From Sinomonas humi (GTDB lineage Bacteria; Actinomycetota; Actinomycetes; Actinomycetales; Micrococcaceae), in NCBI RefSeq assembly GCF_000802235.1, contig NZ_JTDL01000104.1:1-64000 (forward strand): a stretch of DNA of 64,000 bases, read 5' to 3'. Made by a program: the position numbers and the translations under genes. The notes under the pieces were generated by a model, which saw only the letters and a list, made by a program, of their open reading frames with translations, did not search any database and had not been told where the DNA came from. Numbering within the stretch: the stretch's first letter is position 1; each line of letters starts with the position of its first letter. Positions 993-3,691 of this stretch are shown here, one piece after another.

Positions 993-1064
993 GGGCGATT
1001 GGCGCAGCGGTAGCGCGCTTCCCTGACACGGAAGAGGTCACTGGTTCGATCCCAGTATCGCCCA
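993..1064 (+). tRNA. tRNA-Val (anticodon GAC), copy 2
   Basis: Identical over all 72 bases to the tRNA-Val at 768-839. It is the last gene of the cluster, and a terminator hairpin begins 5 bases after its end. Confidence 0.96.
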
Positions 1065-1069
1065 CACAC

Positions 1070-1092
1070 GGCGCCCTTGAGGCGCCTTTTTT
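1070..1092 (+). terminator. Intrinsic terminator of the tRNA cluster
   Basis: GGCGCC, a 5-base loop and GGCGCC, followed directly by six T residues. This is a classical Rho-independent terminator just after the last tRNA. Confidence 0.85.
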
Positions 1093-1161
1093 CTTGCCTT
1101 TTTTCCTGTCTCTTTCCTGCCTCGCGTCACGAACCCGACGGGGCCCGCTCTCAGTCAACAC

Positions 1162-1245
1162 GTAGCCACGTGTCCGCCGTGCCCGGCACCTCCTCGGAAA
1201 CCCCGACGCCGAAGGGGTGTTGGATTGGGCGCGACACGTGGCTAC
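1162..1245. repeat. Perfect 13-bp inverted repeat around CACGTG cores
   Basis: GTAGCCACGTGTC at 1162-1174 and its exact reverse complement GACACGTGGCTAC at 1233-1245 are separated by 58 bases. Each arm contains the palindrome CACGTG. The downstream arm overlaps a putative -10 box, so the pair looks like two operator half-regions of an unknown regulator. Confidence 0.6.
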
Positions 1246-1248
1246 CAT
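1220..1248 (+). promoter_or_regulatory. Putative promoter of the short ORF at 1295
   Basis: TTGGAT (1220-1225), a 17-base spacer and TACCAT (1243-1248). It points at the short ORF with the strong ribosome-binding site, and its -10 overlaps the downstream arm of the 13-bp inverted repeat. Confidence 0.5.
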
Positions 1249-1294
1249 CGTTCGTGGTGGAGCACAGTAGCTCCCTGAGTGAAAGGAGGTGGCC

Positions 1295-1393
1295 GTGTCT
1301 TCAAGCGACGCCATCATGGACAGGGCCGGTATCAGCGTCAGGAAGCTCGATCGGATCGAGGTTCTCTCCCGAATGCTCGGGGGCCAGTCCTAG
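1295..1393 (+). CDS. Short ORF, 32 residues, unrecognised
   Basis: A GTG start five bases after a very strong ribosome-binding site (AAAGGAGG, 1282-1289) opens a 32-codon frame ending at TAG (1391-1393). The peptide begins MSSSDAIMDR and ends with the segment LSRMLGGQS. It mixes acidic and basic residues with spaced hydrophobics, which would suit a short amphipathic helix. It has its own putative promoter with an inverted repeat over the -10, and hairpins at 1416-1430 and 1455-1486 follow. I recognise no family. It could be a small protein, a leader peptide or chance; the ribosome-binding site and flanking signals argue for translation. Confidence 0.5.
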   Translation: MSSSDAIMDRAGISVRKLDRIEVLSRMLGGQS

Positions 1394-1415
1394 AGACACC
1401 GTCCTAGGGACTTAG

Positions 1416-1430
1416 CCGGCGCAACGCCGG
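1416..1430 (+). terminator. Small hairpin after the short ORF
   Basis: CCGGCG, loop CAA, CGCCGG. There is no T-tract, so on its own it is weak as a terminator, but it sits in the 3' region of the short ORF. Confidence 0.35.
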
Positions 1431-1454
1431 ACCGACCCACGATACGTCACAGGG

Positions 1455-1486
1455 ATGCCGGTACCGCTGAGAGGCGGGACCGGCAT
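1455..1486 (+). terminator. Terminator hairpin between the short ORF and zapE
   Basis: ATGCCGGT (1455-1462) pairs with ACCGGCAT (1479-1486) and an inner CCGC/GCGG stem extends it. A short T run follows on the plus strand. It can serve the plus-strand short ORF and lies just beyond the 3' end of the convergent zapE gene. Confidence 0.6.
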
Positions 1487-1514
1487 TTCCGCGTCCGGGA
1501 GCCTCAGCCGCGGC

Positions 1515-2564
1515 TCACGAGAGCTCGCTAGCCTGGGCTTCTCGGGCGAGGGCGGTGAGGCGGGACACGGCGCGGAAGTACTTCTTCAGGTATCCGCCCG
1601 ACATCATCTCCTCGGTGAAGAGCTGGTCGAAGGGGACGCCTGAGGCGAGGATCGGCACGTCCTTGTCGTAGAGGCGATCCGCAAGGACGACGAACCGCAG
1701 CGCGACGGCCTGCTCCTCGATGGTGTGCACGTCCTTCCAGACAACGCCGTCGATCCCGTCGATCAGCTGGCGGTAGCGGCTCGGATGAACGCCCGCGAGG
1801 TGCTTCATGAGCGCGCCGAAATCGTCAACGGCGACGAGGCCGCCGTCGAACTCGGCGTTGATCCGGGAGTCGAGGTCTTCCGTGCGAAGGGGCGCGGGGG
1901 CTGCCGGAAGCCCACGGTGTCGGTAGTCCTCGCCGTCGATCCGGACGACGTCGAATTGGTCCGAAAGGACCTGGATCTCGCGCTGGAAGTCGACGGCGGC
2001 AAAGCGGCCTTCGCCGAGAGCTCCCGGAAGCGTGTTCGAGGTTGCTGCAAGCTTTACGCCGGCGTCCGCGAGTTCCCGCATGAGGCGGGACATGAGCACG
2101 GTATCGCCCGGGTCGTCGAGCTCGAATTCGTCAATGCACACGAGGCGGTAGGAGCTCAAGGCCTCGACGGTCTTGCGGAACGACAGTGCCCCGACCAGAT
2201 TCGTGTATTCGACGAACGTTCCAAACGCTTTGGGGCCGGGCGACGCGTGCCACAGCGATGCGAGGAGGTGCGTCTTTCCGACGCCGAAGCCACCATCGAG
2301 GTAGACGCCGGCGCGCGTCTTCGCCTTGTTCCCGTTTCCCCCGAAGATCCGGGAGAAGAGCCCTCCGCTGTTGCGGACGCCGTCGATCGATGCGCCGAAG
2401 TCCTGGAGGGACCTGACAGCCGCGGCCTGCGAGGGCTGAGCCGGGTCCGGTCGGTAGCTGTCGAAGGAGACTTCACCGAAGCGCGGTGAGGGGTGAAAGC
2501 CGGCCAGGAGCTCGTCCACGGACACTTTGGGCGTGCGGGTGGTCAGGTGTGTGACAGTCGCCAA
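1515..2564 (-). CDS. zapE: Cell division protein ZapE / AFG1-family ATPase
   Basis: 349 residues, P-loop ATPase of the AFG1/ZapE family, which in bacteria is linked to FtsZ-ring function and in mitochondria to membrane protein quality control. Visible are the Walker A motif GGFGVGKTHL at residues 91-100 and Walker B LVCIDEFEL at 141-149. The arginine-rich middle and C-terminal helical part fit the family, and the length is typical. Translation probably starts at TTG (2562-2564), since no ATG or GTG lies nearby in frame upstream of the conserved region. It is divergent from sseA, with about 210 bases between them for both promoters. Confidence 0.9.
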   Translation of the reverse strand: MATVTHLTTRTPKVSVDELLAGFHPSPRFGEVSFDSYRPDPAQPSQAAAVRSLQDFGASIDGVRNSGGLFSRIFGGNGNKAKTRAGVYLDGGFGVGKTHLLASLWHASPGPKAFGTFVEYTNLVGALSFRKTVEALSSYRLVCIDEFELDDPGDTVLMSRLMRELADAGVKLAATSNTLPGALGEGRFAAVDFQREIQVLSDQFDVVRIDGEDYRHRGLPAAPAPLRTEDLDSRINAEFDGGLVAVDDFGALMKHLAGVHPSRYRQLIDGIDGVVWKDVHTIEEQAVALRFVVLADRLYDKDVPILASGVPFDQLFTEEMMSGGYLKKYFRAVSRLTALAREAQASELS

Positions 2565-2776
2565 GGAATCCGTCCGTCTCGGGCCCGAAAGGGCATTACA
2601 TCGGTCTGAGGGCCAGTGGCAAGGATATCGCGCGCCCGGACGTCATGTTGCGCCTCATGACAGCCGGCGACGACGACCCTCACTCTTGCGGCGCGGGCTG
2701 ACTACGCTGGAAGGGACATTTCAGGGGCGGCGTCGATGGCGCGCGTCCCTGGCTCAGCCGAGCGAAAGGCCATGCC

Positions 2777-3691
2777 ATGAGCTATCCTCTCGACACGAAC
2801 GAGAAGTTCGCTGCCTACGCCCATCCCGAGCGCCTCGTCTCGACGGAGTGGCTCGCTGCCCAGCTCGCCGACGGCGCGCTCGAAGGCGGCAAGCTCGCGG
2901 TCGTCGAGTCCGACGAGGACGTTCTGCTCTACGAGACCGGCCACATTCCGGGCGCCGTCAAGATCGACTGGCACACGGACCTTAACGATGAGGTGGCGCG
3001 TGACTACGTCGACGGTCCCGCGTTCGCGAAGCTCCTCGCGTCGAAGGGCATCTCGCGCGACACCACGGTCGTGATCTACGGTGACAAGTCGAACTGGTGG
3101 GCTGCCTATGCCCTCTGGGTCTTCACACTGTTCGGCCACGAGGACGTCCGCCTCCTCGACGGCGGCCGCGACAAGTGGATCGCCGAGGGGCGCGAGCTCA
3201 CGACCGACGTACCTACCCCCATCGAGGGCGACTACCCCGTCGTCGAGCGCAACGACGCTCCGATCCGCGCCTTCAAGGACGACGTCCTTGCCCACCTCGG
3301 CAAGCCGCTCATCGACGTCCGCTCCGCCGACGAGTACACCGGCAAGCGCACCCACATGCCTGCCTACCCCGAAGAGGGCGCTCTGCGCGGCGGCCACATC
3401 CCGACCGCTGCGTCGATCCCGTGGGCTCGTGCGGCTGCCGAGGACGGTACGTACAAGTCGCGCGAGGAGCTCGAAAACCTGTACCTGGGTGAGGCCGGGC
3501 TCAATGCCGGAGACGAGGTAGTTGCGTACTGCCGGATCGGCGAGCGCTCGAGCCACACGTGGTTCGCCCTCAAGTACCTCCTCGGCTTCGACAACGTCCG
3601 CAACTACGACGGCTCTTGGACCGAGTGGGGAAATGCGGTACGCGTTCCGATTGTTAAGGGTGAAGAACGAGGGACTTGGCCGCTCTCCTGA
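2777..3691 (+). CDS. sseA: Thiosulfate/3-mercaptopyruvate sulfurtransferase (two-domain rhodanese)
   Basis: 304 residues with two rhodanese domains. The C-terminal domain carries the active-site loop CRIGERS starting at Cys252, where the persulfide forms. The N-terminal domain has Asp103 at the equivalent place ([11 protein letters not shown]) and is the usual inactive copy. The enzyme transfers sulfane sulfur from thiosulfate or 3-mercaptopyruvate to acceptors. The next gene encodes a SufE-like sulfur acceptor, a pairing that suggests sulfur relay. ATG start with AAAGG upstream. Confidence 0.93.

Follow-up and report, generated by a model that had tools for sequence, protein, structure and literature searches.

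For the Rv0909-Rv0910 pair of mycobacteria, toxin and antitoxin activity has been demonstrated, Rv0909 being the antitoxin (PMC2781298, PMC3968373). In one of these reports the pair is given as PF10604-PF14013 with the toxin first, and therefore Rv0909 is a PF14013 protein (PMC3968373). Furthermore, VcdRP of Vibrio cholerae, with the 29-residue VcdP, has been described as a dual-function RNA (PMC8672173), and ANTAR-target RNAs as having two stem-loops with hexaloops that carry A at position 1 and G at position 4 (PMC8164766).

The locus described here lies near the beginning of the window, i.e. the whole analysed stretch of 64,000 nucleotides of the Sinomonas humi contig NZ_JTDL01000104.1. The initial annotation had presented its 32-codon open reading frame (ORF) as an unrecognised, real and regulated small gene. 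In our analysis, the ORF is no microprotein gene of a new kind; it is an internally deleted orthologue of a longer gene of the known PF14013 (MT0933_antitox) family. No paper on this element was found among open-licence publications. The reading we favour, with moderate confidence and on the basis of sequence comparison, is that of a PF14013 orthologue which has lost most of its coding middle, the ends of which are strongly selected, and the transcript of which (about 240 nt) is most likely still made and needed.

Layout of the locus and descent from a PF14013 gene

In Sinomonas humi, a tRNA-Val gene is followed by a promoter, an inverted repeat, a strong Shine-Dalgarno (SD) site, the 32-codon ORF, two hairpins and a convergent zapE gene. 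All elements named in the initial annotation (promoter, 13-bp repeat, SD, ORF, hairpins and the terminator of the tRNA unit) are present in the sequence. The upstream neighbour, tRNA-Val(GAC) (993-1065, forward strand; ARAGORN and the Rfam tRNA model), is the final gene of a Gly-Cys-Val-Gly-Val array at 551-1065, in which tRNA-Gly(GCC) and tRNA-Val(GAC) each occur twice. Such a five-tRNA array is also present at the loci of four of five relatives, with none in the available stretch of L004. The intrinsic terminator of the tRNA unit (1070-1086, forward strand) was the sole hit of the terminator scan, with 1.5 hits expected from shuffled sequence, and the long 3′ hairpin at 1455-1486 was not flagged by it.

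The promoter, on the forward strand, consists of the -35 hexamer TTGGAT (1220-1225) and the -10 hexamer TACCAT (1243-1248), read from the sequence, the latter also from the alignment, and separated by a spacer of 17 nt; TTGG is retained in the Sinomonas rows except G011. A consensus promoter scan of 300-2800 gave no hits at the locus, with 0.2 expected. Further along the forward strand, the 5′ UTR hairpin GGAGC-ACAGTA-GCTCC (1259-1274) lies near the predicted 5′ end and is followed by the SD site AAAGGAGG (1282-1289), invariant in the six rows of the 32-codon group described below, by the ORF (1295-1393, with a GTG start at 1295 and TAG at 1391-1393), and by a 3′ UTR hairpin read by eye, CCGGC-N5-GCCGG (1416-1430). 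The long 3′ hairpin, which is not assigned to a strand, is likely a terminator common to this unit and zapE. The zapE-type ATPase gene (1515-2564, reverse strand; NCBIfam NF040713, 234 bits) encodes a protein whose best named matches are those of Sinomonas gamaensis (89% identity) and S. cellulolyticus (85%). With the Rfam 15 covariance models no match at E ≤ 1 was obtained in 1066-3655 of the window, and NCBIfam gave no hit for the short or the full-length proteins of the locus.

A search with the window peptide returned four of 38 genomes at E ≤ 0.001, namely its own, those of two close relatives and, less strongly (4.2e-5), that of a third, and two further genomes of the genus at E ≤ 1. When the unit was searched as DNA, its ends had matches more widely, in 72 of the 197 family genomes at E ≤ 0.1, and chance probably accounts for many of the weak ones. 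Beyond the closest relatives, the better-matching loci hold a longer gene (64-83 codons in Sinomonas, at most 121 elsewhere) whose 5′ region and 3′ hairpin resemble those of the window unit. Three of the proteins were scanned and matched PF14013: L015 (65.3 bits, E 5.7e-18) and L020 (63.2 bits, 2.6e-17), which are full-length Sinomonas versions in the same slot, and L016 (61.4 bits, 9.4e-17), from another genus and with another neighbour. The window ORF itself stays below the PF14013 gathering score of 27 bits and matched no family at E ≤ 1. Its position and flanks are nevertheless orthologous to those of the full-length members, with tRNA-Val, the gene and convergent zapE in common and with promoter, start and 3′ hairpin aligned.

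The same arrangement recurs among 80 zapE loci of named genomes, in 44 of which a PF14013-like ORF lies within 1600 nt behind zapE. Where tRNA-Val is also found within 1600 nt (23 loci), such an ORF is present in 21, and the remaining two, L037 and L078, have shortened ORFs. In an 18-row Sinomonas alignment (16 genomes, two in duplicate), the promoter and 5′ UTR stay in register, as do the start with the first codons and the 3′ hairpin, while the coding middle is absent in differing ways. The locus is thus the orthologue of a PF14013 gene minus most of its coding middle.

Shortened forms in Sinomonas and selection on the peptide

PF14013 was found in 177 of 245 sampled Micrococcaceae genomes at E ≤ 0.01 (168 over the cut-off) and in 27 of 32 genera. 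Within Sinomonas, it was found in four of 15 genomes, the other 11 being without a match anywhere at E ≤ 0.1; zapE and the 3′ hairpin, the latter in a single copy with up to three mismatches, are both present in 15 of 15. With S. cellulolyticus (L038) added to the 15 genomes searched (L037 and L039 duplicate genomes already counted), the full-length gene is kept in four of 16, and an ORF of 28-32 codons occurs in 12, in five forms: 32 codons in a group called short32 here, which includes S. gamaensis (G000, G009, G006, G007, G001 and G010), 31 codons in short31 (G005, G008 and G013), 29 codons in G011, 28 in G012, and again 32 in S. cellulolyticus.

In a tree of concatenated proteins (quick method, SH-aLRT supports only, with L038 and the outgroups filling 24-30% of the columns), the 32-codon group (support 99) and the 31-codon group (100) each form a clade, L038 stands next to the full-length G002 (96), and G012 and G011 are placed apart (87-88). 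Shortened lineages are interleaved with full-length ones, and the label "full" needs four changes, at least three of them forced by the starred branches. Read in this way, the tree gives five separate shortenings in Sinomonas, if the deleted domain cannot return. Shortened forms were also found beyond the genus, in Arthrobacter sp. Hiyo8 (27 codons), sp. MA-N2 (37), sp. Soil782 (39) and G165 (26), and by eye they keep the 5′ hairpin, the SD and the 3′ hairpin. G165 is absent from the PF14013 matches of the 245-genome sample and, when the tables are compared by eye, is the sole non-Sinomonas genome with a match to the 5′ element at E ≤ 1e-6 yet none to PF14013, the two samples (245 and 240 genomes) being not identical.

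The deletions differ among the short forms (L011, L012 and L013 with 31 codons, L014 with 29, L026 with 28, L038 with 32, and L001-L006 of short32), all of which have 28-32 codons; under a crude deletion model such clustering of lengths has p of about 0.0016, a post hoc figure. In short31 and S. cellulolyticus, TAG stands at a codon where the full-length rows read CAG.

In regard to the coding signal, a genuine small gene had been expected to keep its reading frame and start signals in close relatives. The start signals are kept and the ORF is open at equal length in all six short32 genomes, but selection on the peptide is not clear. Differences are spread evenly over the codon positions of the shortened ORFs (e.g. 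12/11/8), in short32 and likewise in short31; they are rich in third positions in the full-length rows (15/11/24 and 9/8/21) and strongly so in zapE (24/11/131). Under a codon model, omega was 0.72 both in short32 (2ΔlnL against 1 of 0.91) and in short31 (0.24), in neither case different from 1, with power limited by the 31 and 30 codons available and by few changes among G000, G009 and G006; the substitution ratio, proposed as a check of the small gene, therefore does not place the peptide clearly under selection. For three full-length rows omega was 0.13 (2ΔlnL 31.3), and for their first 31 codons 0.05.

The ORF is open in all 12 shortened genomes, and in the two multi-species groups it is free of gaps, in contrast to the linker behind it, where each group shows three gap runs. 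In a neutral simulation with hand-set branch lengths, all six short32 ORFs stayed open at a frequency of 0.127. Certain residues recur in the short ORFs, namely [LF]-[DE]-x-[IF]-E and an end of the form G-x-Q-x, and in short31 variable columns make up three of the first 45 bases versus 15 of the remaining 51. No other reading frame is open across all 12 short rows, one antisense frame being open in ten. No clear peptide constraint is seen in the shortened ORFs; translation may still count even if the residues do not.

Conservation and folding of the predicted transcript

In six related genomes, the mean pairwise difference, with gaps scored as differences, is 0-0.34 in the bins of 1219-1497, compared with 0.39-0.71 in the upstream and 0.50-0.66 in the downstream bins. 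Within short32, the bins from the -35 to the start differ by 0.05-0.14, those of the 3′ hairpin by 0.00-0.07, and those of the ORF and of the adjoining linker by 0.15-0.34, with 0.39-0.71 outside the unit; fourfold sites of zapE in the same genomes are 34-54% different. The conserved block reaches from the -35 to a point behind the 3′ hairpin, and because its boundaries coincide with the promoter and this hairpin, recombination is unlikely as its origin. Constraint at the nucleotide level thus acts on both transcript ends, and the contrast between the bins and their flanks supports the earlier claim of a real transcription unit.

The 5′ hairpin was examined across the family. A usable start was present in 98 of the 107 loci that had a coding match, which gave 82 distinct upstream regions; 11 Sinomonas rows were added (93), L083, L154 and L160 were dropped as unlike the others, and removal of duplicates again left 82 rows. 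In these, 97.3% of 410 cells are paired (87.4% when shuffled), 58 cells are changed on both sides (17.4 in shuffles) and the covariation score is 0.465 (0.262 shuffled), values reached by none of 500 shuffles, which retain relatedness and whose fractions are not probabilities. Pair counts and pair-type counts were weaker, being reached by 37 of 500 shuffles, and slid versions of the hairpin score lower. RNAalifold predicted four of its five pairs. Since the per-sequence statistics are weak (p ≤ 0.05 in 33 of 93 sequences, median 0.12), the case for the hairpin rests on the family-wide comparison with shuffles; in five of the six short32 rows another stem, which takes in the -10 box, scores highest. 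Compensatory change has taken place in the 5′ hairpin across the family. Of the 240 family genomes searched with a covariance model of the 5′ element, 164 had a match at E ≤ 0.01. All 15 Sinomonas match by construction, the model having been built from rows that include theirs, and give no independent support; one weak match (G174) lies before an unrelated gene.

The consensus fold of the six short32 transcripts, compared with column shuffles that preserve conservation, gave z of -5.1 overall, mostly from the 3′ hairpin (-4.8). The ORF alignment folded better than its shuffles (z -2.8, 0/200), and the 5′ UTR alone, in the six rows, no better (z -0.46, 64/200). Two candidate hairpins lie within the ORF on the forward strand, CTCGA-N5-TCGAG (1346-1360), with a nearly invariant stem, and CCCGA-N4-TCGGG (1368-1381), with an invariant one, the loops of both being variable in the six genomes. 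Their stems contain one variable column in 20, versus 47 in 79 elsewhere in the ORF, a Fisher count that is descriptive, as the stems were picked after alignment. The long 3′ hairpin may be kept for zapE, and it may also be more than a zapE terminator. An A/G mismatch within it recurs, by eye, in L016, L019 and L030, and a similar hairpin stands behind the gene in L042 and L053, even though their zapE is about 1.6 kb distant. Related to translation, the ribosome site AAAGGAGGTGATCC is found in 5′ UTRs of full-length genes, e.g. in L029, L032 and L033; it is the full complement of the 16S rRNA 3′ end, and these species may translate the full-length gene more strongly than most others.

The perfect 13-bp inverted repeat, found by repeat search and not assigned to a strand (left arm 1162-1174, right arm 1233-1245, 58 nt apart, with CACGTG in each), does not belong to the ancestral unit and is confined to close relatives. 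Its right arm overlaps the promoter spacer and the -10. The initial annotation had seen in it a sign of regulation, for which there is no support beyond the closest relatives: both arms are perfect in three of eight Sinomonas genomes (G000, G009 and G006); G001 and G007 have a single perfect arm, and G010, G004 and G005 have neither. Every perfect arm copy in the eight genomes searched is at this locus. A wider regulon was rejected, with 42 sites at up to one mismatch versus 42 in the reversed control. G007 was an exception, with 15 sites versus two, six of them at identical offsets near contig starts and so probably a repeat; there, GACACGTGGCTGC occupies 544-556 in three contigs and 878-890 in three, perhaps as part of an insertion sequence. 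The repeat may act as a local operator, or may stem from an inverted duplication at this locus.

Proposed role, rival readings and comparison with known systems

According to the favoured reading, transcription would run from about 1255 to about 1490. A hairpin near the 5′ end is a usual means for mRNA to resist decay, and the 5′ hairpin, close to the end of this transcript, would serve as such a stabiliser, while the 3′ hairpin would terminate it. Ribosomes would still load on the SD and read a short ORF whose residues are of little importance, and the function would lie with the RNA, through base pairing or ribosome loading, rather than with the peptide. In many Micrococcaceae the RNA would also encode the PF14013 protein, and most Sinomonas would have dispensed with the protein and retained the RNA frame. 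As the 5′ hairpin, promoter, SD/start and 3′ hairpin appear to be under strong selection, the transcript is most likely still needed, and its likely product is a small structured or ribosome-loading RNA. That the cell still needs the RNA rather than the peptide is suggested by the protein part having been repeatedly cut out, with the switches and folded ends almost unchanged. A more far-reaching version, which we put forward only tentatively, is that the PF14013 mRNA had a role at the RNA level throughout, and that Sinomonas lineages repeatedly dropped the protein and kept the RNA together with a sequence-indifferent ORF of about 30 codons, the translation of which matters and the product does not.

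Alternatively, the ORF could encode a functional 32-residue microprotein, derived from the N-terminus of the PF14013 protein plus a small stretch of its C-terminal part. The strong SD and start, the constant 32 codons of short32, the gap-free ORF beside its gapped linker, the recurring residues and the less variable first 45 bases of short31 would all fit this. Against it, two shortened groups each give an omega that does not differ from 1, third positions are not enriched in differences, and the short ORFs of the various lineages have only pieces of the old protein in common, namely the N-terminus and, in some, a segment ending in GVQ. We consider it unlikely. The same value of omega, together with repeated shortening inside one genus, could also be expected of a decaying pseudogene, the protein of which became superfluous in Sinomonas and the cis elements of which have not yet worn off; retention of the 3′ hairpin for zapE, as a common convergent terminator, would account for the 3′ part. 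However, the stretch from the -35 to the start differs so little, relative to the fourfold sites of zapE, that the 5′ part is not drifting freely, and such decay also seems improbable to us.

It could further be proposed that the unit is a leader-peptide attenuator or a regulatory leader of another gene, given a short ORF with a strong SD and hairpins behind it. As the next gene, zapE, is convergent, there is no directly downstream gene on the same strand to attenuate, and this proposal has hardly any probability.

If the favoured reading is true, the abandonment of the protein by several separate lineages that kept the RNA would be a natural experiment that splits the role of an mRNA from that of its protein, and would offer a clear path from a bacterial mRNA to a regulatory RNA. 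The poorly understood PF14013 family gains a conserved RNA element open to testing. Likewise, a strong SD, a short ORF and hairpins need not signal a functional microprotein.

Compared with the known systems, the window unit has most in common with the full-length PF14013 members of Sinomonas, with which it agrees in its slot, in the promoter and start regions and in both the 5′ and the 3′ hairpin; the 5′ hairpin and SD are also present in other Micrococcaceae PF14013 genes. Unlike these Rv0909-like small proteins, the window ORF is without the 49-position domain and has no match to the model. An Rv0910-type (PF10604) toxin gene was not found adjacent to the locus; the genome holds ten PF10604 matches at E ≤ 0.01, six over the cut-off, the nearest on this contig at 198,831. 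Since no PF10604 gene is nearby, the name "antitoxin" says little about function here. ANTAR-target RNAs, as far as they are described in the cited source, resemble the window element as actinobacterial 5′ UTR hairpins, often with a six-base loop, and the window loop ACAGTA happens to carry A at position 1 and G at position 4. An ANTAR-target RNA was rejected on structure, with one conserved hairpin here and with A1/G4 in three of the 47 six-base loops of the family alignment, the window's among them. VcdRP, in what its report describes, resembles the predicted RNA of this locus, as it is small and contains an ORF of about 30 codons. It is reported to have both an RNA and a protein function, whereas in the window the peptide is without clear constraint and the predicted role is that of the RNA.
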